Origin: Nannobrachium achirus | Lineage: Eukaryota; Chordata; Actinopteri; Myctophiformes; Myctophidae | DNA length: 64,000 nt | Direction of reading: 5' to 3' | Assembly (NCBI GenBank): GCA_963921795.1 | Contig: OY997651.1 | Span: 44,029,328-44,093,327, forward strand | Part shown: piece after piece, positions 206 through 63,777 of the stretch | Position numbering within the stretch: the stretch's first letter is position 1 | Layout: each line of letters starts with the position of its first letter | Translations under genes and position numbers: made by a program | The notes under the pieces: generated by a model | Database searches by the model: none | Seen by the model: only the letters and a program-made list of their open reading frames with translations | What the model was told of the DNA's origin: nothing

Positions 206-750
206 TTAACCCACTTAAACCCTATTGAAAAATAGCAGATGTACCTGGAACAACATATTTTTAGATGGGGGTCCGCGGCCAAATACCTATAATTTTGGGG
301 ATCCTTGACAATTAAAAGGTTCGAGAACCTCGGATGATAGAAACACAAGTTTTTCAAAAAACTTTTAAAAGAGATTTTTTAGAATCGGGTCAATATATTC
401 AAAGACTTCAAGTTCAAGTTCATTGTCACATATATTCATACAGTGAAATGCTTGCGCTAGGAGCATTCTCAGTCTTAAAGACACAACAAAAGTGTAGACC
501 ATGTAGGCCCAACAGACATAAATATACAATTACATATCCCAATCCCATACCATACAATGTAACATTACTAGCATTGCACAAATTGTCATGGTTTTTCTAA
601 AAAAAATTGCAGATCTACAAGCTCGCAGCCGCGCTGTGAGCTTGTAGATCTGCTATTTTTCCACTATTGTTAAAGCAAATACAATAATGATTACAGTGGT
701 TGAAATCTAACGTGACACAAATGCGTTTCCTCCCGGTACAAATGGCTTAA
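206..750 (-). mobile_element. Family B element, degraded, reverse orientation
   Basis: The copy runs between a TTAA at 206 and a TTAA at 747. The first hairpin (about 225-240) survives only as its outer arm, AATAGCAGAT. The second (601-660) is complete, with arms CAGATCTACAAGCTC and GAGCTTGTAGATCTG. The middle holds the family-specific text 'GGGGGTCCGCGGCCAAATAC', and the AGAATCGGGTCAA motif seen in other B copies. The 92- and 88-residue frames here are element sequence, not genes. Confidence 0.75.
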
Positions 751-1260
751 GCTCTAAAAGAAAAAAGGGGAAAAAAGAAAGCGTGTTCGCCGCGGTCTCC
801 CGCGGATCCCGGAACACTGCACTAAAAAAGGAGCCCGGGATCCCTGCGGAGCTGAAACGCCCGGGGCTGTGTAGGATCTACAGTAGCGTAATGAAAACGC
901 GCTGCGGGATAAAGGTAAATGGCTGAGTAAAGACTGTAGCAGAAGCCATCAACACCATGAAAGGGATAACTTCAGAAAGCTCCCCAAGCCCGTTGCTGCA
1001 CTGAATGAAACGCTATCACCAACAACCTCACAGATGTGACATAACCACTTACACTCTGTGGTTGAAAGGAGTCCTCCAGGGCTCTATACCAGGGCCCCCC
1101 CGCACCCTGTTTTCTCTCTGTGCACTAAATATCGAAAATAGACGATCTACACATGGCACGTTCAGAATCATAATGAGCTTATGTTGGCACATTACAGGTT
1201 TACAGGTGTAAATCAGTGGGTGCAATTTGTGTTGGTGAAAGGCCCACTTTTCTTTGTTGA

Positions 1261-1577
1261 CTTTAGCCCCATTTCCACTGTAGGGCCGACCCAGAACTAG
1301 AACCAGAACTTTCCAGAACCTGTAAATTTCCGGGACCAAGTTCCGCTTACGTGTCCATATAACCAGAACCAACTGGGAAGGTCCCAAAAAAGAGCAGCAG
1401 CGTAGCTGGCCCCCAGAACTAAAGTTTAGTTATACCTCAGGAGCAGGACCTCAAAAAGGTTCCAGGAACCTTGTCTGGAACCGGGCCGTACGCAATGGAA
1501 ACAAAACCAGAACCAAAAAAATTGGTTCAGGTTCCTGAAAGTTCTGGTTCCACCTTGCAATGGAAAAGGGGCTAAAG
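1261..1577. mobile_element. MITE with CTTTAGCCCC / GGGGCTAAAG ends
   Basis: The terminal inverted repeats start CTTTAGCCCCATTTCCACTG and end CAATGGAAAAGGGGCTAAAG. The interior repeats 'CCAGAAC' and 'GTTCTGG' words in both orientations. No coding capacity. I could not separate a target-site duplication from the palindromic termini, so the superfamily is open. Confidence 0.6.
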
Positions 1578-1734
1578 AGAGAGAGAAAGAAAGAAAAAAT
1601 AAACATATAAAAAAATAACATGCTATCTACATAAATTATTTACACATGGCATATCCATCCATCCAATATGTACAGGTTTAGACATACAGTGCATGAGCAT
1701 AGCAGCTGGTATATACCGTTAATGATTGCACCTT

Positions 1735-1869
1735 TTTGAAAATATCTAGACGTAGTGGAGTAAAAAATACAAGATTTGCCTCTGAGATGTAGTGGAGTAG
1801 AAGTAAAGTAAAAGTACCTCGAAATTGCAGTATACTTGAGTAAATGTACTTGGTTATTTTACACCACTG
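1735..1869 (+). mobile_element. Family E (hAT-like) right-end fragment
   Basis: The tail matches the right part of the E copies at 26741-27175 and 19140-20480: 'GTAGTGGAGTAGAAG', 'GAGTAAATGTACTTGG', ending TTTTACACCACTG. The left end is missing. Confidence 0.6.
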
Positions 1870-2729
1870 TATCTAAAGAGTGAAAAAGGTAATGAGATAT
1901 GGGTTGTCCAAACAGTGGCGACCGTTTTATCGGACTGTGTTCCTGGAACTTTGGTTTTGGTGGCGGTAGCTATCGTGGCGGTAACACTGCGATCATTGCA
2001 ACGGTTCATTACTTCATTATGATTATGTCACTGGAATGCTTTGGTCTTTTCTCTGAACGGTAAACTCGCTCACGTGCCGAGGCGAGTCACGTCTTGAAAC
2101 GAGAACTCTAGCGCAAATGAACAAAGCTTCGCGACTCTGACTGACGTTCATCGTCGCGTAGGAGGAAGGATGGCTGGAAACCCCGGCTCTCTTCATGAGC
2201 CTCTGCCTTTGAACGTGATGTCAGGTGTGACTTCAGAGAGACAGAGAGGGAGAGAAAGGCAGGAAGAAGCGCTGTAGGAATGAGATGTGAGATGAGAGAG
2301 GCGGAGTTGTGACTGACAATGAAACGATGCGAACGTCATGCATGTTTTCGCAGTTGGATTACTGGCTCAATTTCATTGTCGAGTACAATGACACTAAAGA
2401 TATTCTTATGGGACATTGTGAAAAAGAAGAAAAAACCTCTCGCCACACTGTCTTCAAATGCAGTTGTTTTTAATGGGAAATCAACAAAGTTTCTGTCTTT
2501 TAGACCATCTTCAGGTTATCTTTATCCTTTAAAGACAGCAAGATAGCCATTAAAAACACATTTTTTTCTTTTTCAATTTGTCAGACCTTTGTTTGGTCTG
2601 TTCTTCGACGCATCGTTGTCGCCTTTGTAGGTGTTCAAGAGAATGTATTTACAATGAATATTATAAATCAACTTTTATTTTTATGAATTACAGGTCTAAA
2701 TAAGTGTGGTACCATATTATATTCATTTT

Positions 2730-2752
2730 TGATTGATTGATTGATTGATTGA
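2730..2752. repeat. (TTGA)n microsatellite
   Basis: About six tandem TTGA/GATT units, read directly. Confidence 0.9.
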
Positions 2753-2791
2753 ATGTTAATTAGTCAGAAATGTAAACAGCACAATTTACAA

Positions 2792-3540: not shown

Positions 3541-3895
3541 ATTTAGGCCAAAAGGAAATCCTGGGGACTTGTTTCGTTGGCGGTCCGATGTAATGTATTC
3601 ACAGTGTATTGTGTGTATAACCTATGTGTATTTACATAGACCCAGAAAAAAAAAGAAAACCTGTAGTGTTAATTTAAAGCTGAAGGTGTAAAAATCTGCT
3701 TGGCTCATGTGTAACTGGATTTGTGGCTGACCTTGATTTCGCCCACTCCCTGTGCAGCGGCCACGTTGGGACCCACCGGCACGTTTATGACATTTTTCTT
3801 TTCTAAATCATCATGAAATCTTAATACTAAAAGCGACAGCACAACAACGCCCCCTCCTCCCCGGCGCCCTGGCCATTCACGGTGGCCTTGTATAT

Positions 3896-4171
3896 CGTCG
3901 TTGTCCGATGAAAACCTTATATGTCCAAAACCGTTCATTTTGCATTTATCGCTTTAAAAATGATTTGAACTAGTGAAAACAGCCGATCTATAAGCACACA
4001 ACGCCTCGCACCGCAAGGCGTTGTGTGCTTGTAGATCGGCTGTTTACACTACCTTTGTGCGACGGCCTTGTATGATGAAGCAGGCCTTGTATGATGAAGC
4101 AGGGCTTTACTTTGCGAAATAACGTACAAATTTGAAACTTGGAGATACGAGGTTTCCACCCGACAACGACG
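3896..4171 (+). mobile_element. Family A MITE (A1)
   Basis: The ends start CGTCGTTGTCC and finish GACAACGACG, with a 4-bp duplication ATAT on both sides (3892-3895, 4172-4175). The hairpin (3971-4050) is GTGAAAACAGCCGATC...GATCGGCTGTTTACAC with apex arms ACGCCTCGC / GCAAGGCGT. The right half holds two tandem copies of 'GCCTTGTATGATGAAGCAGG', where other A copies have one. No ORF of its own. Confidence 0.85.
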
Positions 4172-4688
4172 ATATGAAATATACAGTAGATGGATTTATA
4201 CATTTCATCTCTCTCTCTCTTGTTGGCTCCAACTGAGTGCTTGACCTCCACAGTTCCCCTATAACAGCAGCTTGCGGTGCCTGCGACACAAAAGGGACTT
4301 CGACGCCGGTTTTCGGTGTATCCTTGTAGCGCCCGCTCCGCTTAAAGCATAGCGCCTTTTCTTTTTTTTCTTGTTACCGCGCATGAAAAGCCCTTTACAC
4401 AATGGACCACTTTGGCGCGTAGGTTTACCTTCAGAACACTGTTGATTGCCGCGCCGCAGCTCGGTATGAAAAAAATGTAAAAAAGAAAGAAGCAGCGCGC
4501 CCGCATCAAGGCTGACGCCCAGGGGCCACAATAGAGGATCAGAAAATGTGAGGTTCTCCATAGGGGAGCCATGCAAAGCTGGAGGCATGTTCTCCGTGCT
4601 TTGTGTGCGCGGCGCCTTCTCATCGACGATGCGGGAGGGAGAAGGAGGAGGGGAGGTTCTGGAGACAAGGGCGGCTTTCTGACATTAA

Positions 4689-7084: not shown

Positions 7085-7086
<2 letters not shown>

Positions 7087-8758: not shown

Positions 8759-9300
8759 CAGTGTTGATTTCGTCGACTAAAACTATGACGAAAAATGTTT
8801 GTCGACTGCGTTCTTTTCACTGACGAAAACTAAATAAATATAAAATAAAAACTAAGCTGTGATGACTAAAACTAAGACTAAATATATTGACAATTTCGTC
8901 AACAAAATAAAAACTAGACTAAAACGTTATAGAGGGACTAGTGGAGAAGAGTGTCATTTTATGTTTGGTTGCTCTCGGGTGTTGCGTGCTGAAAATAGCA
9001 GATCTACAAGCTCACAGCGTGTCGCAGCGTGGCGCGCTGTGAGCTTGTAGATCTGCTATTTTCAGCACGCAATGAAGTGTAAAATCAGCCATTACGATGT
9101 CAAGGCCAGCCAAAATAAATTTCAGCTGACTAAATCAACTGTAGATTTAGTCACCTAAAATCTTAGGATATTTGGTCGACTAAAACTAGACTAAAACTAA
9201 AACTTTTCAGGTGACCAAATTATGACTGAAACTAAAATACATTTTATTCAAAAGACTATGACTAAAACTAAATCAAAATTTGCTGTCAAAAACAACACTG
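8759..9300 (+). mobile_element. Family D hAT-like MITE (D1)
   Basis: Ends CAGTGTTGATTTCGTCGAC and GTCAAAAACAACACTG, with a perfect 8-bp duplication AGTTCCAC (8751-8758, 9301-9308). The interior is rich in the word ACTAAAAC. The hairpin is extended by host-specific arms, TTGCGTGCTGAAAATAG and its complement, so the palindrome covers 8982-9072. Confidence 0.9.
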
Positions 9301-10155: not shown

Positions 10156-10177
10156 ATGTCCCTGGCGACGACCATAT

Positions 10178-10416
10178 CGTCAATGTCGGGTCAAAACTTT
10201 GTATGTACGTTCTTTCGCAAAGTAAAGCCCGCTTCATCATACAAGGCCGTCGCACAAAAGTAGTGAAAACAGCAGATCTACAAGCACACAACGCCTCGCA
10301 CCGCGAGGCGTTGTGTGCTTGTAGATTGGCTGTTTTCACTAGTTTGAATATTTTTTTAAATGATAAATGCAAAATGAACGGTTTTGGACATACAAGGTTT
10401 TCACCCGACAACGACG
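10178..10416 (-). mobile_element. Family A MITE (A2)
   Basis: 4-bp duplication ATAT (10174-10177, 10417-10420). The hairpin 10261-10342 is near perfect, with apex ACGCCTCGC-acc-GCGAGGCGT. Reverse orientation: the end GGTTTTCACCCGACAACGACG is on the right. Confidence 0.85.
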
Positions 10417-10701
10417 ATATGCAACTGCAAACGCCAAACATCTTCGCCAGAAACAGACAATAACCTACAACCTCACAACGCGTTCGCGACGTCATGTGTT
10501 TTCGGCTAATGTTCCCCCCTCCCCAGAATATGGACGCTGGGATACAAGTGGTTTAAATGAACGCTTTGAGGAGCAGAGTGCTGTGTGGTCATGTGTTTCA
10601 TCACCGGATGGAGATAGCAGGAAGTCCACAGGGTGGCCCCCGGGTGCAGGACCAACCAGCCCTGTCCAGTCCACCAGCCTTGCTTCTCAGCAGTGGCTCA
10701 C

Positions 10702-11828: not shown

Positions 11829-12458
11829 CAGGGGAGTCGTCGCACCAAATTCTGGGCCCTGGGTACAAGGATTCACTGCAGGCTCCCCATGAATGTTCTT
11901 CATAGGGGGAGGGGGGTTTAACCCATTTAGACTGGGAACGCATTATTACACGTTATTTTGTGCTTTAACTATTGAAAAATAGCAGATATACAAGCTGTGA
12001 GCTTGTATTTCTCATATTTTTGTGCAAATTTGAGCAAGTCTTTGAATATTTCAAATCCTCCTAAGGTTTTTTTTTTTTTTTTTTTTTTACTATGTTTCTA
12101 TGTCAGTGGTGCCCAAATGTTTTCATGTCAAGGACCCCCAAAATGATATGTATTTGGCCACGGACCCCCATCCCAAAATATTTAGTTCCATTGACCCCCC
12201 CAGAAGCAAAATTTGAGTTACAAATGTTTGCTTAAAAAATACATATATTACATCCATCCCCTTTGCCCACCACTGAAAAAGATTTGCACACATGTTCACA
12301 ACTTTTCAAAAAATAGCAGATCTACAAGCTCGAAGCGCGGCACTCGGTACATCTGCTATTTTCCAATAGCTAAAGTATAACATAATTAAGGCCCCTCCAC
12401 CTCCACCTTGGGCCCTAGTAACTCAGTCTCACTCCCCCTCCCCCTTGTGACGCCCCTG
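11829..12458 (+). mobile_element. Family B' hAT element enclosing a B-like core
   Basis: Ends CAGGGGAGTCGTCGCACC and GTGACGCCCCTG, with an 8-bp duplication TGTCCCGG/TGTCCCAG (7 of 8). Inside, TTTAACCCATTTAGACTGGG starts a B-like sequence with hairpins at 11972-12022 (apex lost) and 12308-12363 (right arm partly deleted). A poly-T run sits at 12069-12087. Confidence 0.85.
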
Positions 12459-12897: not shown

Positions 12898-12949
12898 CTA
12901 GTCAGCGACCTGGCCAACTCGGAACAATGTAAATAGGGAATGAATGCCC

Positions 12950-14060
12950 CGCCCTTTAATGCAAACCCCATTATACCTGTTTTCATAGGACCCGTTTTGA
13001 CCATTTGTCTGCCTGTGTCCATTTATGCCCATATATGGAGATATCTGTATCTGTCTGTCTGTCGGTGTCCATTTTATGTCCATATATGGAGATCACTGCA
13101 GTTATAGTTCTGGGTCCATTTTATGCCCATATATGCCCATATATGGAGATATCTGTCTATCTGCGTCCATTTTATGCCCATATATGGAGATCTCTGTATC
13201 TGTCTGTCTGTGTCCCTTTTATGTCCGTATATGGAGATCTTTGTGATTCTGCATCCATTGTATGCCCATATATGCCATATATGGAGATATCTGTTTATCT
13301 GCGTCCATTTTATGCCCATATATGAGATTTCTGTCGCTTTTTCAAACAGATGGTCAAAACGGGTCCTATGACAACAGGTATAATGGGGTTTGCATTAAAG
13401 GGGGAACCGGCACTGTGTCTGCAACACAGTCGGAGGCACAGACAGATACAGAGATCTCCATAATGGGAATAAAGGGACACAGACAAACAGATGGAGGAGG
13501 AGACAAACTTAATGCAAACCCCATTATACCTGTTGTCATAGGACCCGTTTTGACCATCTGTTTGCCTGTGTCCATTTATGCCCATATATGGAGATATCTG
13601 TATCTGTCTGTCTGCGTCCACTTTATGCCCATATATGGAGATCTTTGACCATCTGTTTGCCTGTGTCCATTTATGCCCATATATGGAGATATCTGTATTT
13701 GTCTGTCTGCATCCATTTTATGCCCATATATGGAGATCTATGCAGACACAGTGCCAGTTCCGGAAAATCCTGATGTCAGACATCAGAATCCGAACCTTTT
13801 GTGCTGGTTCCAGAAAATCGTGTATCGGGTCGGGTCGGGTCGAGGCCGAGCACTGCACTACCTGCTGCGGTGGGGAACGCACGTGCCGAATTTGAAATAG
13901 GGAATGAATGCCCCACCCTTTAATGCAAACCCCATGAATGCCCCACCCTTTAATGCAAACCCCAATATACCTGTTGTCATAGGACACGTTTTGACCATCT
14001 GTTTGTCTTTGTCCACTTATGCCCATATATGAAGATCTCTGCACACACAGTACCGGTTGC
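12950..14060. repeat. Minisatellite with CCATATATGG units and inverted blocks
   Basis: Tandem units of about 45-60 bp around TTTATGCCCATATATGGAGA and 'TCTGTCTGTGTCC'. Nine perfect CCATATATGG copies start at 13029, 13080, 13137, 13178, 13275, 13582, 13629, 13677 and 13724. A block TTAATGCAAACCCCATTATA...CCCGTTTTGACCAT occurs forward near 12958, 13510 and 13938 and inverted near 13352. The many PYMEIS-type peptides are repeat translations. Confidence 0.9.
13765..13900 (+). repeat. Interspersed repeat fragment (related to 14085-14490)
   Basis: Contains GATGTCAGACATCAGAATCC, CGGGTCGGGTCGAGGCC, GCACTGCACTACC and GAACGCACGTGCCGAAT, closely matching 14270-14400. Confidence 0.65.
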
Positions 14061-15419: not shown

Positions 15420-16117
15420 CCCATTCAGAACGGGTACACATGTTATTTTATGCTTTAACTATTAAAAAATTGCAGATATACAAGCTCACAGCGTGGCACC
15501 GAGTGCCGCGCTGCGAGCTTGTAGATCTGCTATTTTTGAAAAATCGTCAACATTTGAATTTTGACCCGATACTATAAGTGTCTTTTGAATCCTTCTAATG
15601 TCTTTTGAAAAAGTTATGTTTCTATGTCAGCGATCTGGCTAGCCATCGTCAAAGTAAAGGTCCTTTTCACTTAACTGGAGCTCAGTTAGTCTGTTCTTGA
15701 GAGACTACTATGTCAGTGGTTCTCAAACCTTTTCATGTGAAGGACCCCCAAAATGATATTTATTTGGCCGCCGACCCCCATCTCAATTATCAGGGACCCC
15801 CAGAAGCAAATATTTTAGTTACAAATGTTCACTTTAAAACATATATATTCAAAGATTTGCAATAAAAATCTAGATAAAAAAAATTATGTATCAGGGACCC
15901 CCAGAAGCAAATATTTGAGTTACAAATGTTCACTTTAAAACATATATATTCAAAGATTTGCAATAAAAATCTAGATAAAAAAATAGCAGATCTACAAGCT
16001 CATAGCGCGGCACTCAGTGAGCTTGTATATCTGCTATTTTTGAATAGCCAAAGTATATACAAAAATAATGGTTAAATGGTGGTTACGTGAGACAGATGCA
16101 TTCCCGGTGTTCATGGT
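15420..16117 (+). mobile_element. Family B element with internal duplication (B4)
   Basis: TTAA at 15416-15419 and 16118-16121; left end CCCATTCAGAACGGG. Hairpins at 15462-15537 and 15977-16041. A unit of about 100 bp starting TCAGGGACCCCCAGAAGC is tandemly duplicated (15790-15890 and 15891-15980). Central text TCAGTGGTTCTCAAACCTTT. Confidence 0.8.
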
Positions 16118-16404: not shown

Positions 16405-17065
16405 CAGTGGTGTAAAGGAGTGCATCCCTCCATTCTGACATGTCTCCTTTCCGACATGTCTCCATTCCGACACTAACCCTATACCTAACCCTAACCTTAA
16501 CCTCTATGGAAGTGTTGCCACTCCGACAATAAGAAGTCACTGTCAAAGTGGCGACATGTCGGAATGGACATGTCGCCCGGTGTAAAGTAACGAAATAGAT
16601 TTGCTTTTTGAGATGTTTTTCCAATTTTCAGTAATTTTACTTGCACTCCACTAAATGTCAGATCCAAATATTCTACCTTTACTCCACTACATGTATTTGA
16701 AAACGCTAGTTACTTTGTAGATTTTGATTATTATCACAAAGCATACATTAACCACTTCAGCCCTATATACATTTTGGCCATTTGAAAATAGATGATCTAC
16801 AAGATCACAATGTGTCGCATTGCGACGCATTGTGAGCTTGTAGATCAGCTATTTTCAAAATATTTGTATACATTTGAAAACTTGAAATGGGACATTCTGC
16901 ACAATGAGTACTATTACTTTTGGTACCAGTACATTTTGATGCCAACACTTTTGTACTTTTACTAAAGTCATTTTTTTAATTCCAGACTTCTACTGTACTT
17001 CTACATTGCATTATTGATACTTTTACTTACTTAAGTAAAAGATTTTAGTACTTTTTCCACCACTG
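16405..17065 (+). mobile_element. Family E hAT-like element (E2)
   Basis: Ends CAGTGGTGTAAAG and CTTTTTCCACCACTG, with a perfect 8-bp duplication TCAGCTTG (16397-16404, 17066-17073). The hairpin at 16781-16860 has arms TTTGAAAATAGATGATCTAC and its near complement, apex AATGTGTCGCATTGCGACGCATT. A TTAACCACTTCAGCCC motif lies just left of it. A foreign insert occupies 16418-16578. Confidence 0.85.
16418..16578. mobile_element. 161-bp insert in family E
   Basis: Flanked by a 9-bp direct repeat GGTGTAAAG (16409-16417, 16579-16587). The ends carry inverted CGACATGTC/CATTCCGACA words. The middle has 'ACCCTATACCTAACCCTAAC', a telomere-like run too short to mean much. A 9-bp duplication would suit a Mutator-like element, but the ends are not diagnostic. 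Confidence 0.6.
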
Positions 17066-17384
17066 TCAGCTTGTATGGCTTCTGTGTCTACAGTGGTGAC
17101 ATAGCACTTTGGGTTAGGCAACCAATGTCCTGAGCTGGTCTCAATCTGATCAAAGCTAAAGTACTCGCCCCCAATTTGATCTGTCTATTAGTGGGAGTGA
17201 CTATTCTTCCCATACACATGTACGCACGCACGCAAAGAGTTTGACGCAAAACTGGAGATTTGGAATTACAGATTGAGTGTTGTTCTGTATTATGTAGTGA
17301 GATCCCATTGGGATTATCCAAACCAGATTATGGGGTTTTGTGTTCTTATTGATGAGCAGGGAAATCAAAAATCTGAAAACAAAT

Positions 17385-17650
17385 CGTCGTTGTCGGGTGA
17401 AAACCTTGTATGTCCAAAACCGTTCGTTTTGCATTTATCGTTTTAGAAATGATTTTGAAAAACAGCCGATTTTGAAAACAGCCGATCTACAAGCACACAA
17501 CGCCTCGCACCGCGAGGCGTTGTGTGCTTGTAGATCGGCTGTTTTCACTACTTTTGTGCGACAGCCTTGTATGATGAAGCAGGGCTTTACTTGCGAAAGA
17601 ACGTACGCATTTGAAACTTGGAGATACGAGGTTTCCACCCGACAATGACG
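17385..17650 (+). mobile_element. Family A MITE (A3)
   Basis: 4-bp duplication AAAT (17381-17384, 17651-17654). Ends CGTCGTTGTCGGGTGAAAAC and CCACCCGACAATGACG. The hairpin 17472-17550 is essentially perfect. The left arm is preceded by a short direct duplication, AACAGCCGATTTTGAAAACAG. Confidence 0.85.
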
Positions 17651-18191
17651 AAATCCTACCTACACACGTGTGTAAGGCAGGCCGGGGAAAACACAAGAGA
17701 ATAAAGCAAATATTAAATGTACCAATGTCACGGTGGTATTAACCTAGTTTTGACTGTTTGTTTTTGAATTGGTCTGCATGGGAATAATGTTTGTGCAAGT
17801 GGCTGTGCAAGTTAAAACCCCAGCTGCTGCTGTTCTAGTTATTTAGAAAACCTTTTTCCTCGTAACATTTGGCTCCTATAGCATCGCTCGAAACAAACGG
17901 CCACCTGGTATCTATCACTGCTATGAAAACGGTTTTTAGTCTTTGCCAAAACAGGGTAGGAAAAACAAAAGAACTAAAAACAAAAGAAATGGTAGATTCG
18001 AACAGCAATTGAAAACGATAGGGCATTTATTTATATAACGCCGTGGCATAACAAGCCTATTTGTCCATTTGCGCGCTGATCAATAAAGCTTAACCGTGCA
18101 TTTTTCATTGAACGCATGGGAGATTTGCTGTGTTCAAACAAAGTCGAATCGATGGCGCGAGATTGGCCATCCCGGCTATAGCCTTTTTTAA

Positions 18192-21995: not shown

Positions 21996-22481
21996 TTGAA
22001 CCACTTTAACCATTATTTTATGCTTTAACTATTAAAAAATAGCAGATATACAAGCTCACAGCGCGGCACCGAGTGCCGCGCTGCGAGCTTGTAGATCTGC
22101 TATTTTTGAAAAATCGTGAAAATGTGTGCAAGTCTATGAATATTTTTGACCCGATCTTTGACCCGACTTCTAAATCCTTCCTCTAAATCAGTGGTTCTCA
22201 AACTTTTTCATGTCAAGGACCCCCAAAATTACAGGAATTTAGCCACGGACCCCCATCTCAAAATATGTTGTTCCAGGGACCCCCCAGAAGCAAATATTTG
22301 ATTTACAAATGTTTGCTTTTAAATAGATATATTCAAAGACTTGCAAAGAAAAATCATGATTTTTCAAAAATAGCAGATCTACAAGCTCGCAGCGCGGCAC
22401 TCGGTGCCGCGCTGTGAGCTTGTATATCTGCTATTTTTCAATAGTTAAAGCAGTCAATAATCCTAGGCCTAAATGGGTTAT
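21996..22481 (+). mobile_element. Family B element (B6)
   Basis: The left end reads TTGAACCACTTTAACC and the right end GGCCTAAATGGGTTAT. Hairpins at 22033-22110 and 22365-22440 both have full apices (ACAGCGCGGCACCGAG...; GCAGCGCGGCACTCGG...). Central 'TCAGTGGTTCTCAAAC' present. Confidence 0.8.
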
Positions 22482-25982: not shown

Positions 25983-26505
25983 CAGGGGCGTCACAAGGGG
26001 TAGGAAAGTGGGACTGAGTTACTAGGGCCCAAGGTGGTGGAGGGGCCTTAGTTATTTTATACTTTAGCTATTGAAAAATAGCAGATATACAAGCTCACAG
26101 CGCGGCACCGAGTGCCGCGCTGCGAGCTTGTAGATCTGCTATTTTTAAAAGTCTTGAAAATTTGTGCAAATCTTTGAATATATGTATTTTTTAAGCGAAC
26201 ATTTGTAACTCAAATTTTGCTTCTGGGGGTCCCTGGAACTCAATATTTTGAGATGGGGTTCCGTGGCCAAATACATACCATTTTGGGGGTCCTTCACATG
26301 AAAAGGTTTGAGCTCCATTGACATAGAAACATAGGTTTTTCAAAAAACCTCAGAAGGATTTGAAATATTCAAAGATTTTCTTGATTTTTCAAAAATAGCA
26401 GATCTACAAGTGAGCTTGTATATTTGCTATTTTTCAATAGTTAAAGCACAAGGGCCCGCAGTGAATCCTTGTACCCAGGGCCCAGAATTTGGTGCGACAC
26501 CCCTG
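25983..26505 (-). mobile_element. Family B' hAT element
   Basis: Ends CAGGGGCGTCACAAGGGG and GGTGCGACACCCCTG, with a perfect 8-bp duplication TACACACA (25975-25982, 26506-26513). Hairpins at 26071-26147 (full) and 26390-26435 (reduced to CTACAAGTGAGCTTG). It inserted into a CA-rich stretch. Confidence 0.9.
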
Positions 26506-26740: not shown

Positions 26741-27175
26741 CAGTGGTGGAAAAAGTACTCCCATTTTCTACTTTCAAAGTAAAAGTATCAATACTGCGTT
26801 GTAGTACTCTGTTACAAGTCCAGAATTCAAAATTTACTTGAATAAAAGTACAAAAGTATTGGCATCTAAATGTACTTAATGTACCAAAAATAAAAGTACA
26901 AAAATTGTTGAAAATAGCAGATCTACAAGCTCACAATGCACCACAATGCGACGCGTTGTGAGCTTGTAGATCGTCTATTTTCAAAAAGGTATAAAACAGG
27001 GCTAAAGTGGTTCATGTATGTTTTATAATAATATTTTATCTGAAAAGTGACTACAGTTTTCACATAATTGTAGTGGAGTAAAAGTACAAGTTCAAGTAAA
27101 GTACAAATACCTCAAAAGTGTACTTAAGTACTGTACAATACTTAAGTAAATGTACTTAGTTACTTTACACCACTG
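26741..27175 (+). mobile_element. Family E hAT-like MITE (E1)
   Basis: Ends CAGTGGTGGAAAAAGTACTC and TTACTTTACACCACTG, with the duplication GGTAAAAG/CGTAAAAG (7 of 8). The hairpin at 26909-26984 has arms GAAAATAGCAGATCTACAAG and its complement. Right of it, GGGCTAAAGTGGTTCA resembles the TTAA-insert end. Confidence 0.85.
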
Positions 27176-36010: not shown

Positions 36011-36022
36011 CTGCATGTATAT

Positions 36023-36250
36023 CGTCGTTGTCGGGTATAAACCTTGTATGTTCAAAACCGTCTGTTTTGTATCTATAATTGTATCTATAAAACAGCCGAT
36101 CTACAAGCACACAACGGGCGTTGTGTGCTTGTAGATCTGCTGTTTTCACTACTTTTGTGCGATGACCATATGATAAAGCAGTGCTTTACTTTGCGAAAAG
36201 ATTTACACATTTGAAACTTGGAGATACGAGGTTTCTGCCCGACAGTGACG
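36023..36250 (+). mobile_element. Family A MITE (A4)
   Basis: 4-bp duplication ATAT (36019-36022, 36251-36254). The hairpin 36088-36148 has a cut-down apex: CACACAACGGGCGTTGTGTG. Confidence 0.85.
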
Positions 36251-36717
36251 ATATCCATGTCACCCTGACCCTGGCAGTACGCCCAGACATCCTCAATGTC
36301 CTTCTTCTCAGACATGCTAGGCCCCTGGCTGGAGGTGCCCTAAATACAGTTGAAGTCAACCATTTTCACATCATTTATTCACCATTTGAGCCACGGACCA
36401 CCATTTGAGATTTAGCCTATCAGACCCAAAACCTTGAGAATATTCAGTTACCGTTGGATACGATTGTGTCCACAATTCCATACTGTATTGATGTGGTGCC
36501 ATAGGAGAGATAACAGGCAAACGGTGATCAAACAATAACAATTCTTTAATTAAGTAATGCAGTTGTTTAACTATTTAACTCTTGAGAGCGTAAACATTAG
36601 CCTCACATAGCCAGACGAATCTGCCATTGCAAAGAAACCCTATGTAGTGATATTGTCTGGCTATCTTAATGCAAGGCAAGGCTACATCCCACATGGTACT
36701 TGTCTGTTTAGCTTAAC

Positions 36718-43850: not shown

Positions 43851-44203
43851 TAGGGCTGTCACGATTCTGACATTTTACATGACAATTAATTGTCACTCAA
43901 ATAATTGCGATTTAATTGTGTTTTTGTCGTAGACAATTACGTTTCTGTTTGGCTTTTTAGGCTTTGAAGTTGCACATGGCAGATATGACACATAACCTAA
44001 ATATGCAAAGAAATTACTGACATATTTGACAACTTTATGCTTAAAAAAGAACATTGATAGTGGAAATAGCCGATCTACGAGCTTGTAGATCTGCTATTTA
44101 CACTATTTTCAACATGGGAACGATTATGACGATTTTGAAAAATAATCGTGATTATGTCAAATAATTGCAATTAGACGATTATGTAATAATTGTGACAGCC
44201 CTA
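43851..44203. mobile_element. Family K hAT-like MITE
   Basis: Ends TAGGGCTGTCACGATT and AATTGTGACAGCCCTA, duplication ACCTCCGG/ACCTCTGG (43843-43850, 44204-44211; 7 of 8). The hairpin at 44057-44104 is minimal: GATCTACGAGCTTGTAGATC. Confidence 0.85.
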
Positions 44204-44858: not shown

Positions 44859-45434
44859 CAGGGGCGTCACGAGGGGGAGAAAAGTGGGACTGAGTTTACT
44901 AGGGCCCAAGGTGGAGGGGCCTTAATTATTTTATACTTTAGCTATTGAAAAATAGCAGATATACAAGCTCACAGTGCGGCCCGAGTGCCGCGCTGCGAGC
45001 CTGTAGATCTGCTATTTTTGAAAAGTCGTGAAAATGTGTGCAAATCTTTGAATATTATGTATTTTTTAAGCGAACATTTGTAACTCAAATTTTGCTTCTC
45101 GGGGGTCCCTGGAACTAAATATTTTGAATTGGGGGTCCGTGGCCAAATGTCTATCATTTTGGGGGTCCTTCACATGAAACAGCTCGAGCACCACTGACAT
45201 AGAAACATATAGGTTTTTGAAAAATAGCAGATCTACAAGCAGATCTACAAGCTCGCAGCGCGGCACTCGGTGCCGCGCTGTGAGCTTGTATATCTGCTAT
45301 TTTTCAATAGTTATAGCGCAAAATAAAGCGTTGCCAGTCTAAATGGGTTAAATCCCCTCCCCCTATATGAAGAACACGGGGGGCCCGCAGTGAATCCTTG
45401 TACCCAGGGCCCAGAATTTGGTGCGACACCCCTG
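44859..45434 (-). mobile_element. Family B' hAT element
   Basis: Ends CAGGGGCGTCACGAGGGG and GGTGCGACACCCCTG, perfect 8-bp duplication CTCCCCAC (44851-44858, 45435-45442). Hairpins at 44945-45019 and 45216-45310; the second has a tandem 12-bp duplication AGATCTACAAGC. A B-type right end, TCTAAATGGGTTAA, is embedded at about 45340. Confidence 0.9.
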
Positions 45435-47178: not shown

Positions 47179-47532
47179 CAGGGGTTTTCAAACTTTTTTG
47201 ACTCAGGGCACCCCTGTAAATAACTTTTTCATCCACGGCACCCCTGAGTTACACTGTTAATATTTAGAATCTTAAATCCTATTGGAGAAATATCCGTTTC
47301 CATCAGAACTGACTGAAAATAACGTTATACTTGAGGTTTAACCACTTGAACCCCAGCATGCCTATTCTGGGGGGAAGGTTCACCAAAAATAACATGACGC
47401 GTTGTGAGCTTGTGGATCTGCTATTTGTGGTGAAGAGAGTTGTCGTAGATAGAAAAAATCAAACCTCGGTTCGAAGTGGAGCGGTGAATCTGAGCAGCTA
47501 TACCCTGTGTGTGTGTGTGTGTGCGTGTGCGT

Positions 47533-47588
<56 letters not shown>

Positions 47589-47918
47589 TGAGTGTGCCTG
47601 GCCTGCACAAAACAGCGCCCCTCTTTAACTAGTGTGTTGTGTGTGGCCACTCAAGGTATTGCCAGGCTACGGACGGACGGACACGGCCAGCCAGCCAGCC
47701 AGCCACATACCCACGGACATACCTGTCTATTGGGAGCGCTTTCACCGCTCCAAAAATAACTCGTCAAGTACAGTGCAAATCAGGCTTGTTTTACTAACAT
47801 AGTGAAGTGATATTGGTGATATTGATGAATTCCAAATATTATCAAATGATCTGGCGGCATCCCTAAACTGGCATCAGGGCACCCCAGGGTGCTCCGTCAC
47901 CCTCTTTGAAAACCCCTG
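47179..47918. mobile_element. Family P hAT-like element
   Basis: Ends CAGGGGTTTTCAAACTTT and TTTGAAAACCCCTG, perfect 8-bp duplication GATTATCG (47171-47178, 47919-47926). Inside are TTTAACCACTTGAACCCC (about 47338), a reduced hairpin (47387-47435, right arm TGAGCTTGTGGATCTGC), 'TCGGTTCGAAGTGG', and a GT microsatellite (47511-47587). The frames inside are not genes. Confidence 0.9.
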
Positions 47919-48423: not shown

Positions 48424-49024
48424 CCCATTTAGAACGGGTACACATTTCTGTGTATCATTATTTTATGCATTAACTATTGAAAAATAGCAGATATACAAGC
48501 TCACAGCGCGGCACCGAGTGCCGCGCTGCGAGCTTGTAGATCTGCTATTTTTGAAAAATCGTGAAAATTTGAACTTTGACCCGATTCTAGAAGTGTCTTT
48601 TGAATCCTTCTAAGATTTTTTGAAAAACCTACTGTATGTTTCTGTGTCAGCAATCTGGCCAGCCGTCGTCAAAGAAAAGGTCCTTTTCACTTAAATGGAG
48701 CTCAGTTAGTCTGTTCTTGAGAGACTACTGTGTCATTGGTTCTCAAACCTTTTCATGTGAAGGACCCTCAAAATTATATTTATTTGGCCACGGACCCCCA
48801 TCTCAAAATATCTAGTTCCAGGGACCACCCAGCAGCAAAATTTGAGTAACAAACGTTTGCTTTGAAAATACATATATTCAAAGATTTGCACACATTTTCA
48901 CGACTTTTTTCAAAAAATAGCAGATCTACAAGCTCGCAGCGTGGCACTCGGTGCCGCGCTGTGAGCTTGTATATCTGCTATTTTTCACTGGTTAAAGTAT
49001 TCAATAATTCTAGGCCTAAATGGG
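48424..49024 (+). mobile_element. Family B element flanked by CTAG (B7)
   Basis: Ends CCCATTTAGAACGGG and CCTAAATGGG, flanked by CTAG (48420-48423, 49025-49028) instead of the usual TTAA. Hairpins at 48478-48552 and 48911-48986. One of the most complete B copies (601 bp). Confidence 0.85.
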
Positions 49025-50985: not shown

Positions 50986-51430
50986 CAGTGTTGTAAAGTA
51001 GCTAAGTAGATTTACTGAGGAACTGTACTTAAGTACTACTTTTAGTTATACTGTATCGTCGTTGTCGGGTGAAAACCTTGTATGTCCATAACCGTTTGTT
51101 TTGCATTTATCATTTTAAAATGATTTAACTAGTGAAAACAGACGATCTACAAGCACACAACGCCTCGCGGTGCGAGGCGTTGTGTGCTTATAGATCTGCT
51201 GTTTTCACTACTTTTGTGCGATGGCCTTGTATGATGAAGCAGGGCTTTACTTTGCGATAGAACGTATACATTTGAAACTTGGATATACGAGGTTTCCACC
51301 TGACAACGACGATATAGTTATTATTATTTACTTGAATATTTCAAAATGTCTTCTACTTTTACTTATACTCCACTAACTTATCGGATCCAACTATTGTACT
51401 TTTACTCCACTACAATTATTTGAAAACTCA
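50986..51430 (+). mobile_element. Family E element carrying an A insertion
   Basis: Left end CAGTGTTGTAAAGTAGC; E-type text 'CTTTTACTCCACTACAATTA' right of the A copy. The right terminus is lost. Confidence 0.65.
51057..51311 (+). mobile_element. Family A MITE (A7), nested in E
   Basis: Starts CGTCGTTGTCGGGTGAAAAC and ends CCTGACAACGACG. Flanks GTAT/ATAT (3 of 4). Hairpin 51129-51210, apex ACGCCTCGCGGTGCGAGGCGT. Confidence 0.8.
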
Positions 51431-51893: not shown

Positions 51894-52391
51894 CAGTGTT
51901 GATTTTTTCGTCGACTAAAACTATGATGAAAAAATGTTGTCGACTGCGTTTTTTTCACTGGCGAAAACTGAATAAAAACTAAGCTGTGATGACTAAAACT
52001 AAGATTAAATATATTGACAATTTCGTCAACAAAGTAAAAACTAGACTAAAACGTTAGGGAGGGACAAGTGAAGAAGAGAGTAATTTTATGTTTGGTTGCT
52101 CTCAGGTGTTGCGTCTGCGACGCGTTGTGAGCTTGTAGATCTGCTATTTTCAGCACACAACCAAGTGTAAAGTCAGCCATTACGATGCCATCAAGGCCTG
52201 CCAAAATACATTTCAGTTGCCTAAATCAACTGTAGATTTAGTCGCTAAAAATCTTATGATATTTAGTTGACTAAAATTAGACTAAAACTAAAACTTTTTA
52301 GGTGACTAAATTATGACTAAAACTAAATGACATTTTATTCAAAAGACTATGACTAAAACCAAATCAAAATTTGCTGTCAAAAACAACACTG
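51894..52391 (+). mobile_element. Family D hAT-like MITE (D2), one hairpin arm deleted
   Basis: Ends CAGTGTTGATTTTTTCGTC and GTCAAAAACAACACTG, perfect 8-bp duplication GCTGTTTC (51886-51893, 52392-52399). Only the right hairpin arm is left (52115-52157): ACGCGTTGTGAGCTTGTAGA. Confidence 0.9.
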
Positions 52392-53106: not shown

Positions 53107-53572
53107 TAGGGCATTAACGACTTGTGATTTTTGCAAGTCGACTCGACTCAGTAAAAAGTTGAGTTGAAGTCGACTTTATCGTTTGATGACGTCATCACAT
53201 CACACGCGACCCCCCAATTATTTTGGGGGGTCCCCAGATGATTAACTTAATGTGAAACATTGTTTTCTCACTCAACTGTAAACAAACCAACATAAAGCTT
53301 AAGTGTATAGAGGGTATCTTCACATTTCTAAAGTGCCAATTCAAGGACTTTTTAACACCTCTAAAATGGCAAATTAACCATTGTCCAAATTGTCAAATAT
53401 ATAGAGGCAGAAATTGTGAAAATAGCCGATCTACATGCTCACAACGCCTCGCATTGCGAGGCGTTGTGAGCATGTAGATCTGTTATTTTCACAATAATAA
53501 GTATATACTGTATATTTTTTCAACTTCGACTTTCAACTTTCTCTGGTGGGAGACTTTTTCGTTAATGCCCTA
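53107..53572. mobile_element. Family L hAT-like MITE
   Basis: Ends TAGGGCATTAACGACTTG and TTTTTCGTTAATGCCCTA, perfect 8-bp duplication ACTGTAGA (53099-53106, 53573-53580). The hairpin 53413-53495 starts ATTGTGAAAATAGCCGATC and has the ACATGC/GCATGT arm variant. A related relic is at 57366-57530. Confidence 0.9.
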
Positions 53573-54075: not shown

Positions 54076-54407
54076 CTATGACTATGTTGACTATGGGGAA
54101 GGGAAAATAAAAACATTTAAACCTTTTTTTTTTTTTAGATAAAATAAAAATGTTCAAATTGGATCTTGTGGGGTTAACCAGTGTTTTGACTAAGATTCAC
54201 CACAAATGAATGTCGATTCTGCCCTCCCGGCAGACAGTTAGCTAGAAGAGGAAGAAAGAAAAAAACTCCAAAAACTAGCACTGCAGAGAGGAGTTGTTGC
54301 ATCTAAACCTGTACATCAGAAAGACAGTATATATTGTCACCGTGCAGTTTTGACATGTCCCTCAATCACTCTCTCTGTCCTTGTGCTGTTCCTCTCTATC
54401 ACCATTT

Positions 54408-54655
54408 CGTCGTTGTCGGGTGAAAAACTTGTATGTCCAAAACCATTCATTTTTTATATCATTTAAAAAAAATGAACTAACTAGTGAAAACAGCCGATCT
54501 ACAAGCACACAACGCCTCGCGGTGCGAGGCGTTGTGTGCTTGTAGATCTGCTGTTTTCACTACTTTTGTGCGACGGCCTTGCCTGATGAAGCAGGGCTTT
54601 ACTTTGCGAAAAAACGTGAAACTTGGAGATACGAGGTTTCTGGCCGACAGTGACG
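54408..54655 (+). mobile_element. Family A MITE (A8)
   Basis: 4-bp duplication ATTT (54404-54407, 54656-54659). Hairpin 54482-54561 complete, with apex ACGCCTCGCGGTGCGAGGCGT. A 195-residue frame crosses this element and the adjacent CA tract and is not a gene. Confidence 0.85.
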
Positions 54656-54669
54656 ATTTATACCCTCCT

Positions 54670-60585: not shown

Positions 60586-60632
60586 AAGTGCAGGTTCTGG
60601 TATTTGGGAGAATCATTATAAGCCCCATATAT

Positions 60633-60847
60633 CGTCGTTGTCGGGTGGAAACCTTGTATGTCCAAGACCGTTAGTTTTGTATTCATCATTTTAAAATTAA
60701 TTAAGCGGTGCGAGGCGTTGTGTACTTGTAGATCGGCTGTTTTCACTACTTTTGTGTGACAGCCTTGTATGATGAAGCAAGGCTTTATGGGTGAAAAAAG
60801 TACAACTTTGAAACTTGGAGATACGAGGTTTCTGCCCCACAGTGACG
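60633..60847 (+). mobile_element. Family A MITE (A10), left hairpin arm missing
   Basis: 4-bp duplication ATAT (60629-60632, 60848-60851). Right arm GCGAGGCGTTGTGTACTTG kept (60705-60748). It lies 47 bp after A9. Confidence 0.75.
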
Positions 60848-61499
60848 ATATATATAGTGAGACCTGGGTGTTGCTCAGAGGCAGAGCCAACGTCTATATA
60901 GACAAGACAGGGACCGGGGCGTATGGGGGTCATTAGCGTCTCTGTCATACGTCAGGACGTAGATTTGCTCCTGTGTTAGGGCCGCCTCACGTCATGTTCC
61001 GGACTCCGAGACACCTCACAGCTCCCCCCCCGTCCCGCCCCATTAAATTTGCAGCTGCTTTTTATGTGACCCGAGCTGCATGGCAGCCCTTAGAAGGAAA
61101 GCTCCTCTTTTAAATTATGAATCGTGCCAGGTGCAGCGATTTCATTATTAAGCGTGTTGACCTTGGGCAGGCACGGTTGAAATAGACGGTGAAAGCCACG
61201 GTCGGATGTAAGAATGAGAGAATGACAGCTTCCATCCGTATGTTTCCACGGTCAGATAGTGGAAACAAGACTGTGAGGAAACGTGCGTGTCTCGTGATGT
61301 TTCATGTGTGCTCCTCGGATGTGTGGATGGATCTAATGTGGCATGCAGGAAGAGAGCATATGGAGGCTCCTCTCTCCACACACAACCCTAAGACTGTCTG
61401 CCATCATGGGTTGCTACGTGTGTAATTCAAGGACGTGCAGAGAATGTTAAGAGAGGCAGGGGCTGAGATTTCTAAAAGGGCCTTTTGGTGAAGATATCG

Positions 61500-61570
61500 G
61501 AAATAGCCGACCTCCAAGCTCACAACGCGTCGCGCTGCGACGCGTTGTGCGCTTGGAGGTCGTCTATTCT
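61500..61570. repeat. Hairpin module, variant arms, host unresolved
   Basis: Arms AAATAGCCGACCTCCAAGC and GCTTGGAGGTCGTCTATT. The usual GATCTACAAG is GACCTCCAAG, and the partner arm has the matching CTTGGAGGTC. Apex ACAACGCGTCGCGCTGCGACGCGTTGT. Confidence 0.8.
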
Positions 61571-61599
61571 CGCTGCTTGGTACCACACTGAACTAAGCA

Positions 61600-62125
61600 T
61601 AACCGGTAAGACTCCCTAATCGGGAGATAAGCGACCGTCAGATCGCAGCGTGATTTTAGGGCAAAATGTGTAGGAGCAGTGTCCAAAAATGTGTTTGAAA
61701 AAATCGTCCTGATGGTGGCGCTATATGGGACAGATCCATGTTGAAGACATGAGTGTAGACGAAGTGTGTACCGATTTGCGTGATTTCAAGGCAGCATTTG
61801 TAGGAGCAGTGTCCAAAAATCTGTTTCGCAAGAATCGGCCTCATGGTGGTGCTAGAAGTGGGGCATGTGAGAATTGAGGGGTGGATGTAGTGGTTTGGCA
61901 GGCAAGGAGTGTGTGTGCAAATTTTGGCATGAGTTCAGGAGAGACAATTCTCTTGAATGCTGCCTTCAGGTATGGCATGGAAAGAGGGGCATTTGGCATT
62001 TCTTTTACCATAGTAAAAACTGCATTCATGGTCTGGAGAGGGCACTTTTTACAGACGGGTAAAAAGGCAGGGTGCTCAAGCCCCCTTTGATTTCTATGTG
62101 TGCACGTGCCTGGTGTAATTACAAT
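61600..62125 (-). repeat. Family H repeat, reverse copy
   Basis: Begins GACTCCCTAATCGGGAGATA, the reverse of the end at 50495. It contains two TAGGAGCAGTGTCCAAAAAT blocks and continues into the sequence shared with 5610-5785. Confidence 0.65.
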
Positions 62126-62983
62126 GTGCATGTATGTCTCCATGCAATCTGTGTGTCTGTGTCTGCTTGAGAGAGAGAGAGAGTAAAAAGCCTGGCTAAA
62201 AGAGGGCCTATGGGGACCAATGGAGAGAAGGAGGATAGGAACCTAGGAGGCTGGGGAGCGACAGATTGCTCCCTCAAGTGGTTTCCTTCCTATCTTTGAA
62301 ATGCAAAAAAAAGAAATGCTATAAGCGAAAGAAATGATTACAAGAAAATACATATGTGTGTGTGTGTGGACTGTAAATAGCTGGAGCAAAACGCTTGCCT
62401 TGCCATTGCAACCATATGCCGATTGTTACATATACAGTCTGCTGTTTGCATACGCGTGTGTGTGTGTGCAGCGTGTCTGATTTGCATCGTTATGTGACCG
62501 CGTCAAAACAGGTTCAGAAGTTCATCCAGTCCGTCGCTGGCGCTGGACGAAGAATAACCATTTCAAAAGTCTGCACGACGACATTGCTTTTTGATTGTTT
62601 GATTGATTGAGCAGTTTATTTAAAGTTTATTCAAAAGGATGAATGCACAAGAAAGCCTGTATGCCTGTTTCCATTGCGATTGTATTTATTTCTTTTTATT
62701 CAAAAGGATATTTCAAAAGTAATTGAAAAAACACTGCCCCATCTACGCATTAGAAGGAACATCGTTCACCAGAACCATGGGTGTTTTCAGTGAATCTAAC
62801 ATTGTTAAAATGGAGTTTGAAGTTACAAGGGCTGCGTGCGTGATTAAATAAATATCAAATCTAGGTAAATAAATAGTACTGACTCAAGCTACTTACAAAA
62901 TGTGTCTGGCATACTCGCAAAAGCCTGAGTAGACGTTAAAATTACCCCCAACCCCTGTTTGAAAGTCAAATATCCCTTTAACA

Positions 62984-63442
62984 CAGGGGTCTTCAACAGG
63001 GGGTCAGGGGTCCCCAGAGTTACTACAGGGGGTCCTCCAAAGCTTTAAGTGATAGAAACTTTTTTTCTCCTTTTTTATATTAACCACTTGAACGCTAGCG
63101 TCCTTCTGAGAACTTTAGCCAAAAATAGCACATCCACAAGCTCACAACGCCTCGCGCTGCGAGGCGTTGTTAGCTTGTAGATCGGCTATTTTTGGCAAAG
63201 AGCTTTGGTGTAGAGGGGGAAAAGAGCAGACTAAGTACAGAGTGAAAGGTCAAGTTTATAAGTATTGACGGTTCAAGTGGTTAAATATCTGAAAATACAA
63301 ATTTACATGAATCCAAGATACACTGACGATTGTGCTGTCAAACAATGAAACTATATGGAATCTATGAACAGGTTGTGGGGGTCCCTGCTTCATATCTCTC
63401 TCAACTAAGGGGTCCTTGGCCTGAGAACGTTGAAGACCCCTG
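62984..63442 (+). mobile_element. Family C hAT-like MITE with inner TTAA insert
   Basis: Ends CAGGGGTCTTCAACAGGG and CGTTGAAGACCCCTG, perfect 8-bp duplication CTTTAACA (62976-62983, 63443-63450). Inside, TTAACCACTTGAACGCTAGC (63080) and CGGTTCAAGTGGTTAA (to 63284) delimit a 197-bp TTAA-bounded unit that carries the hairpin (63118-63196). Confidence 0.9.
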
Positions 63443-63543
63443 CTTTAACACACAGAAAGTGGTATAGAACGTTTTGGCCAAGAAATATGGCCTTCAACAG
63501 GTGAAGGTCAAAACCTGAGCCATATAGCATCAAACCTATAAAT

Positions 63544-63777
63544 CGTCACTGTCGGGCAGAAACCTCGTATCTCCAAGTTTCAAATTTGTACTTTTTTCAC
63601 CAAGCAAAGAACTGCTTCATCATACAAGGCTGTTGCACAAATGTCGTGAAAACAGCCGATCTACAAGCACACTGTGTGCTTGTAGATCTGCTGTTTTCAC
63701 TAGTTTAGTTCATTTTTAAAATGATAAATACAAAACGAACAGTCTTGGACATACACGGTTTCCACCCGACAACGACG
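63544..63777 (-). mobile_element. Family A MITE (A11)
   Basis: Flanks AAAT/ATAT (3 of 4). The hairpin 63646-63700 has a collapsed apex: CAAGCACACTGTGTGCTTG. Confidence 0.8.

Follow-up and report, generated by a model that had tools for sequence, protein, structure and literature searches.

A 64-kb stretch of the genome of the lanternfish Nannobrachium achirus (contig OY997651.1; C14:44029328-44093327 in the labels of this analysis; hereafter the window) carries many copies of a near-perfect palindrome of ~67 nt, with arms AATAGCAGATCTACAAGC / GCTTGTAGATCTGCTATT, under different transposon ends. This module is interpreted, with a probability of about two in three, as the inherited core of one or more tribes of small non-autonomous DNA transposons which has been spread by nesting into hAT elements. 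Miniature inverted-repeat transposable elements (MITEs) of types C and L, inserting at an AT-type site, and those of types A, D and P, inserting at TTAA, would carry the module as an inherited core; such MITEs would have entered hAT-type MITEs several times, independently, and hAT transposase would then have copied the composites, yielding thousands of nested copies with the same core under unrelated ends. In a further layer, module-bearing hATs would have been captured by other hATs (E type). Nested insertion followed by spread of the composites could explain much of the pattern and is best supported for C. Family letters (A, C, D, D2, E, K, L, P, Q, R and S) are labels of this analysis and were derived from clustering of the flanks.

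Copies in the window and in the genome

Arms were searched in the window and in a comparison sample of 20 loci of 10 kb at round, and hence non-random, coordinates (L001-L020, 195.9 kb in total), and genome-wide counts were taken over the 1.66-Gb assembly. With up to three mismatches, the window contains 47 matches to AATAGCAGATCTACAAGC and 52 to its reverse complement GCTTGTAGATCTGCTATT, against none in each of five first-order Markov reshuffles of the window. With up to five mismatches the sites resolve into 47 left-right pairs, with 17 arms left unpaired; this bears out an earlier sequence-only reading that had counted about 60 full, shortened or half copies by eye; some of the single arms are due to chance, since the reshuffles yield 0-6 sites per arm at this threshold. 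By flank cluster the pairs are distributed over A (22), C (9), D (4), L (3), E (3), P (2), K (1), S (1) and Q (1), with one left unassigned. Pair density is 0.73 per kb in the window, and the comparison sample holds 62 pairs in its 195.9 kb; exactly 67 nt is the length of 50 of the 109 pairs in window and sample together, while 54 are shorter than 66 nt.

The search of the source genome that the same reading had proposed returned 168,691 exact copies of the 18-nt arm (84,334 forward and 84,357 reverse) and no match to the reversed arm pattern. Exact-arm density is 0.36 per kb in the window versus a genome mean of 0.10 per kb, making the window ~3.5-fold rich, and scaling gives an estimated total of 0.52 million modules from the sampled pairs or 0.32 million from the exact arms. 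Neither the Rfam gathering scan nor the tRNA scan gave a match in the window, and a viral-contig pattern scan returned 0 matches.

Nested insertion of C, D and E

C-type elements were found within hAT-like elements with three kinds of end (CAGGGGTTCCCAAAC, CAGGGACGTGCTGGG and CAGGGTTCCCCAATAGG), D-type elements within hAT-like elements ending CAGGGGTCTTCAACG, TAGGGATGGGACGATA and CAGGGGTTTTCAAAG, and E-type sequence within hATs ending TAGGGCATTAACGAC and TAGGGCATTCACGAATAG, besides CAGTGGTTCTCAACC. None of the 11 C modules of the window (nine pairs and two single arms) lies in a hAT listed by the finder described below, so that C also occurs free-standing.

The existence of empty host versions, raised by the sequence-only reading, was examined for C in two hosts. 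The empty site was defined as the 25 bases predicted by removing the ~270-bp C element together with one AT-type duplicate, with at most three mismatches allowed. For host 1 (L005:5408) the predicted empty site occurs 1,556 times in the genome versus 8,818 for the filled left junction, and for host 2 (L016:5837) 140 times (26 exact) versus 3,390, corresponding to filled:empty ratios of 5.7 and 24; the reversed-pattern controls for empty and filled sites of both hosts gave 0 in all four cases. These predicted empty sites support a target duplication for C, 2 and 4 bp being indistinguishable, and C appears, from the matches, to have inserted at both predicted sites. The C host L005:5408 and the D host L019:3392 agree at 82 of 96 terminal bases and at 65 of 89 bases from the TTAA junction onward, indicating that one hAT family took C and D separately, with D joined at TTAA. 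Candidate empty copies of H1, S, P and Q in the sample were rejected, as they looked truncated and not clean. The same nesting route probably placed the core in R, S, K and Q, and the composites would be moved by hAT transposases.

A search for the hAT dimerisation domain gave 150 scored places out of 1,653 candidates, and five hAT-domain loci have open frames of 622-633 aa. Two loci (L051 181-3628 and L052 54-3489) are full 3.4-kb hATs, possibly active in the recent past, that combine long open frames with exactly matching 8-bp duplications; their ends, TAGAGCTTAGA, match no module-bearing hAT in the 38-element list given below, and no module lies inside either, with one arm-like match outside each. 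Eight of the 150 transposase matches fall in C4:72.4-75.9 Mb and 53 of 100 listed exact host-1 empty sites in C4:71.7-74.5 Mb, perhaps marking a locally amplified region.

Ancestry of the hairpin within its carriers

C elements with the exact flanks AACTAGTGAA and TTCACTACTTT have a gap of 52-82 nt between them in 17,594 cases and of 0-30 nt in 910. The gap is exactly 67 nt in 28 among 40 matches listed from the former class; among 100 matches listed from the latter it is 18 nt in 19 and 0 or 1 nt in none, and no clean hairpin-free junction is found there. An 18-nt remnant in the E element L005:6858 is the product expected from a deletion between the AGATCT-like stretches of the two arms, and the 18-nt remnants in C probably reflect the same type of deletion. 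These counts and the graded gaps show that the hairpin is ancestral in C and is lost by graded deletion. A search of the window and L001-L020 for hosts with both inner flanks and no hairpin returned gaps of 22-77 nt and seven near zero or negative; these seven were rejected as hairpin-free hosts because inspection by eye showed alignment artefacts or modules that were halved, shortened or decayed.

At R loci, picked by an R end beside the module, an arm lies 83-108 bases from the right hAT end in 26 of 30 and at exactly 92 bases in 20 of these 26; seven of the 30 have exact 8-bp duplications. The inside of the four armless loci (L021, L030, L045 and L046) looks deleted or replaced, not cleanly empty.

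Structure and covariation of the palindrome

Folded as single-strand DNA, window positions 54475-54569 give -47 kcal/mol (z -15.5). Ten family sequences were derived from full-length copies, a few rows of other length being dropped (A 26 copies, C 8, E 5, D 3, R 3, K 2, P 2, and one each for L, Q and S). They align without gaps, and across the 38 stem pairs scored 90.5% of cells pair, versus 31-44% in slid versions. Both sides have changed in 17 of the 38 pairs (36 cells) and one side in 9 cells, and none of 500 shuffles reaches any of the five observed measures. The most changeable pairs include those directly flanking the common core, so that each family has its own matching stem base, and diagnostic bases occur on both arms in C (AACAGC/GCTGTT), E (CATGC/GCATG) and Q (ACCTCC/GGAGGT). 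Between families the arm core is more alike than the flanks, the interior is more conserved than the terminal inverted repeats (TIRs), and similarity falls off directly outside GAA..TTC; C and R are alike over ~10 bases on each side, GAA/TTC included. Beyond the core, 300 pairs of inner flanks were compared, of which C-L, D-D3392 and D-D2 are clearly similar and all others weakly. The hairpin flanks are family-specific inverted repeats, not direct repeats.

In 45 single (dead) copies from five families, 83 pairs carry a change in one arm and 5 a change in both; all five still pair, against an expectation of 1.7. Pairs 21/75 and 41/55 are each unpaired in five of the ten families, and the retained 21/75 mismatch disfavours efficient arm-to-arm correction. 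Covariation between families together with one-arm decay of dead copies argues that the palindrome is maintained in source elements: it has been kept across families by paired changes, which belong mainly to lineages that went on transposing and not to inserted copies, and selection on source elements probably keeps it, not neutral arm repair. The rarity of one-sided G-U steps may, on small numbers, suit selection at the DNA level better than at the RNA level.

Tandem multiplication of module arms was seen at L003 ~1181 (GCTTGTAGATTTAGTGA-like units), at L006 2316-2373 and at window 45223-45301, a pattern that looks as though the hairpin seeds small arrays.

Host elements and their census

The hosts include hAT-type elements with 8-bp duplications and about a dozen kinds of terminus, TTAA-type elements and an AT-target type. 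Ends and duplications include TAGGGATGGGACGATA with atccatat/atccatat (D2), TAGGGCTGTCACGATT with catagaac/catagaac (S), CACTGGTTCCCAAAC with gtgtataa/gtgtataa (R) and CAGTGGTTCTCAACC with gactagag/gactagag (E); the D end is TTAA CCACTTGAACC and the C end ATATCGTC. Elements of hAT type were listed by a finder requiring 8-bp duplicates that differ at no more than one base, CAG/TAG ends, an inverted match of at least 9/14 and a length of 100-2,500 bp; it ignores modules but drops rows that start on a module arm (eight such rows). In the window and L001-L020 it lists 38 elements with TIR matches of 9-14 of 14, the 8-bp duplication (for example AGTTCCAC/AGTTCCAC in K and CTTTAACA/CTTTAACA in H1) being itself a condition of the finder. 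A module arm is present in 31 of the 38, versus a rate of 0.377 when equal lengths are placed at random; the P of 4e-8 at element level assumes independent copies, which elements of the same family are not. The seven module-free rows are window 34527, window 39680 (weak), L009:3945, L009:5748, L015:996, L018:9107 and L019:7148, of which L009:5748 and L015:996 look spurious. When terminus types were sorted by eye, 14 had the module (among them L013:2390, a weak case) and 7 did not (P = 0.0067), and after removal of doubtful types 13 of 17 had it (P = 0.0013). The window contributes 13 of these elements, with 12 pairs and 3 single arms in 11 of them. The many different host termini with duplications of their own described by the sequence-only reading are therefore real; its statement that most hosts are proven in this way did not hold, an 8-bp duplication proving the host for only 12 of the 47 window pairs, about a quarter.

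With 8-bp duplications and any end, 29 of 57 rows hold the module (chance 0.31), ten module-free rows coming from one array in L003. Other duplication classes give 1/6 for TTAA (chance 0.43), 5/11 for 9 bp (0.48), 1/6 for 5 bp (0.37) and 0/1 for T.A. Long-TIR rows of TA type, collapsed by centre, form 41 places, 13 with the module; eight of these 13 belong to type S, D2, A or C, and the other five were read as spans from one separate copy to another. Without the eight, 5 of 33 places hold an arm versus a chance of ~0.37, which is no enrichment. Across the window and L001-L050, 36 of 47 TTAACCACTTNANC ends have a module arm within 170 bp inside, at a lax threshold of up to six mismatches.

That all hosts might be diverged members of a single family was upheld in part. 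Homology joins C and L along one flank and at the termini, and A, D, D2 and P seem to form a single TTAA tribe, weakly so for P and A; the hAT hosts do not merge into one family by their ends. TTAA at both ends was seen for D at L002:1312 and at window 63124, many copies keeping one end. A, D and P end in CCACTT or CCCATT and not in the CC[C/T]T motif as given in PMC2872659, and were therefore not filed as piggyBac. One ancestral palindrome may have seeded both target types, AT and TTAA.

Elements in the window

Coordinates are window positions; TSD, target-site duplication.
3892-4175, plus strand: C-type MITE by terminus matches, ends ATATCGTC..GACGATAT; module 3978-4044
8759-9300, minus strand: K-type hAT-like element; TSD AGTTCCAC/AGTTCCAC; module 8994-9060, palindrome extended to GTGCTGAA/TTCAGCAC
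10174-10420, minus strand: C-type MITE; module 10268-10334
11829-12458, no strand: A-bearing hAT-like element (CAGGGG..); TSD TGTCCCGG/TGTCCCAG; modules 11978-12018 and 12312-12360; TIR only 9/14
15468-16038, no strand: A-type inverted module pair; modules 15468-15534 and 15982-16038
16405-17065, minus strand: P-type composite, hAT-like CAGTGGTGGAAAAAG; TSD TCAGCTTG/TCAGCTTG; TTAACCACTTCAGCC end; module 16787-16853
17381-17654, plus strand: C-type MITE; module 17477-17543
22038-22435, no strand: A-type element; inverted modules 22038-22104 and 22369-22435; outer ends CCACTTTAACC and CCCATTTAGGCC
25983-26505, plus strand: A within hAT-like CAGGGGCGTCACA; TSD TACACACA/TACACACA; modules 26077-26143 and 26394-26431
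26741-27175, plus strand: P-type composite; TSD GGTAAAAG/CGTAAAAG; module 26913-26979
34527-35469, no strand: module-free hAT-like CAGGGCTGCCCAAA, a counter-example; TSD CTTTAGAC/CTTTAGAC
36019-36254, plus strand: C-type MITE; shortened module 36091-36144
43851-44203, plus strand: S-type hAT-like TAGGGCTGTCACGATT; TSD ACCTCCGG/ACCTCTGG; shortened module 44065-44098
44859-45434, plus strand: A within hAT-like CAGGGGCGTCACGA; TSD CTCCCCAC/CTCCCCAC; modules 44951-45016 and 45235-45301
47179-47918, minus strand: hAT-like CAGGGGTTTTCAAA; TSD GATTATCG/GATTATCG; D-type insert joined at TTAA; single arm 47408-47425
48483-48982, no strand: A-type pair of full modules in inverted orientation
51053-51315, plus strand: C-type MITE; module 51137-51203
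51894-52391, minus strand: K-type hAT-like element; TSD GCTGTTTC/GCTGTTTC; single arm 52131-52148
53107-53572, plus strand: hAT-like TAGGGCATTAACGAC; TSD ACTGTAGA/ACTGTAGA; partial E-type element, module 53421-53487
54404-54659, plus strand: C-type MITE; module 54489-54555, the copy folded above
60629-60851, plus strand: C-type MITE; single arm 60724-60741
61502-61568, plus strand: Q-type module; arms ACCTCCAAGC/GCTTGGAGGT, two compensated pairs relative to other families
62984-63442, minus strand: hAT-like H1 CAGGGGTCTTCAAC; TSD CTTTAACA/CTTTAACA; nested TTAA element D; module 63124-63190
63080-63284, minus strand: D element inside H1, TTAA, CCACTTGAACC..GTTCAAGTGG, TTAA
63540-63781, minus strand: C-type MITE; shortened module 63651-63695

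A elements (22038-22435 and others) have two inverted modules around an interior with a hAT-end-like piece, CAGTGGTTCTCAAACTTTTTCATG, perhaps one more layer of nesting. A 435-485-bp repeat with similar translations lies at 28617-29101 and at 34774-35208; the hAT-like element 34527-35469, which lacks a module, contains the second of these. Tandem arrays with ~47/95-bp units and CCCATATATGGAGAT occupy 12931-13781.

Weighing of the explanations

Several observations count against nested insertion of an inherited core. The empty-site figures are counts of sequence matches whose location between hAT ends is only predicted, and among 100 exact host-1 empty sites listed (C1-C8), 53 lie within C4:71.7-74.5 Mb, so that local duplication in this one 2.8-Mb stretch inflates the host-1 empty count. 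The predicted empty site for D in H1 is nearly absent (17 matches versus 5 in the control), so that this insertion rests on the TTAA junctions; no inner element end was found for R, S, K, Q or the E core, and insertion into these is therefore deduced indirectly. The presence of one core in both AT-target and TTAA tribes has no explanation. Seven of the ten family sequences used in the covariation analysis rest on 1-3 copies, and the surplus of both-arm changes in dead copies suggests that some arm correction may occur.

Of the other explanations, neutral hitch-hiking is the most credible, although it falls short of even odds: abundant module-bearing MITEs would have hit hATs by chance, and their arms would sometimes have been copied from each other. 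The very high copy number (168,691 exact arms), the graded deletions in C elements and the small surplus of both-arm changes (5 versus 1.7) fit this account, but the presumed arm correction has left the 21/75 mismatch in half of the family sequences and, in dead copies, 83 of the 88 changed pairs uncorrected. Alternatively, the palindrome could act in cis as an amplification aid, as a cruciform or single-strand hairpin that joins the ends or couples the element to replication, and hAT MITEs that swallow it would outgrow others; this is considered possible but unlikely. It would agree with the module-bearing share of hAT-type elements (31/38 versus 0.377) and of terminus types (14/21), with the 5.7- and 24-fold excess of filled sites, with the separate acquisition of two module carriers by one hAT family, with the 36 both-side versus 9 one-side changed cells, which fit DNA more than RNA, and with the lack of enrichment at other long-TIR TA places (5/33 versus 0.37). 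However, elements of the same family are not independent, the share falls to 29/57 versus 0.31 without the CAG/TAG rule (though ten module-free rows come from one array), the two complete hATs of autonomous size lack the module, and shortening has affected half of the paired modules (54/109 under 66 nt). The filled:empty ratios favour a helping palindrome but are biased, as the composites were met through their abundance. The excess of module-bearing hATs, a hint of benefit and not proof, could mean either that module-bearing MITEs are the commonest insertions or that the palindrome helps. The suggestion of the sequence-only reading that the core is kept because it aids amplification is accordingly favoured by this share and by the covariation between families, but not proven. 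A bolder form would make the palindrome an amplification cassette that can be transferred: a selected DNA structure, taken up by most of the successful hAT MITEs of the genome, that raises the copy number of small hAT, TTAA and AT-target elements served by different transposases. This is regarded as slightly more doubtful still.

Two further proposals of the sequence-only reading fared worse. Ectopic gene conversion carrying the core between unrelated elements is improbable: the greater likeness of the arm core than of the flanks, and the ~10 bases shared by C and R on each side, would suit it, but families retain diagnostic bases on both arms (C, E and Q), and with arms decaying one by one it is not needed. 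A small palindromic element jumping into other transposons was correct in that a mobile unit exists, but this unit is the whole MITE, C of ~270 bp or D. Mobility of the bare hairpin could be read from the drop in similarity just outside GAA..TTC; the chances of this are very slim, given family-specific inverted flanks instead of direct duplications, the lack of gaps of 0 or 1 nt among the 100 short-gap C elements listed and the four of 30 R loci whose armless interiors look deleted or replaced.

Comparison with known systems and significance

Both halves of the arrangement are of known kinds: a shared MITE interior is described in PMC2872659, and a hAT containing a MITE with inverted repeats in PMC8151067. 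The coral CMITEs are MITE families with differing TIRs, a conserved 75-base interior and TTAA duplications, for which ~1,600 copies were estimated in A. millepora, with one target type; one CMITE insertion made a new element, and the core is suspected there of assisting transposition (Wang et al., 2010; PMC2872659). The resemblance, by description and not by core sequence, is that the interior is more conserved than the TIRs here too; the present module differs in its hundreds of thousands of copies, its covarying palindrome and its occurrence in hAT, TTAA and AT-target elements, and the abstract, the Discussion and the first part of the Results of PMC2872659 mention no palindrome. Angel, a DNA element of fish present in high copy number, has long inverted repeats able to form a stem-loop, and according to a figure legend it lies inside the autonomous hAT Tol2 (PMC8151067, PMC3636048); the title of a paper on Angel names a mechanism of amplification (Izsvak et al., 1999). 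Compared by description and not by sequence, Angel likewise is an inverted-repeat element inside a hAT, and differs in that the present module is found in many hosts, with entry on at least three separate occasions. Hairpins were reportedly proposed by Izsvak et al. in 1999 for Angel amplification. The conserved domain of V-SINEs was spread inside MER6, a mariner-derived MITE (PMC6887750), and is similarly carried by another transposon, but it is a domain of short interspersed elements that the abstract of that paper does not call palindromic. The interior of the MITE mPing can promote or inhibit transposition (PMC9921582); mPing is a rice element, and the abstract describes no core common to several superfamilies. 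Among the titles and abstract openings listed by searches of an open-licence library, no description was found of a palindromic core common to hAT and TTAA MITEs, nor did these searches find one covarying palindrome across several transposon classes in hundreds of thousands of copies.

What lets a few MITE families rise to very high copy numbers is a long-standing question. In this genome a single structural core recurs under different ends, presumably served by different transposases, and the same hAT apparently exists with and without the core in hundreds to thousands of copies; such natural pairs make the idea that the palindrome aids amplification directly testable. Nested capture is a possible route to new MITE families, and the palindrome may have been conserved because it helps these elements to spread.

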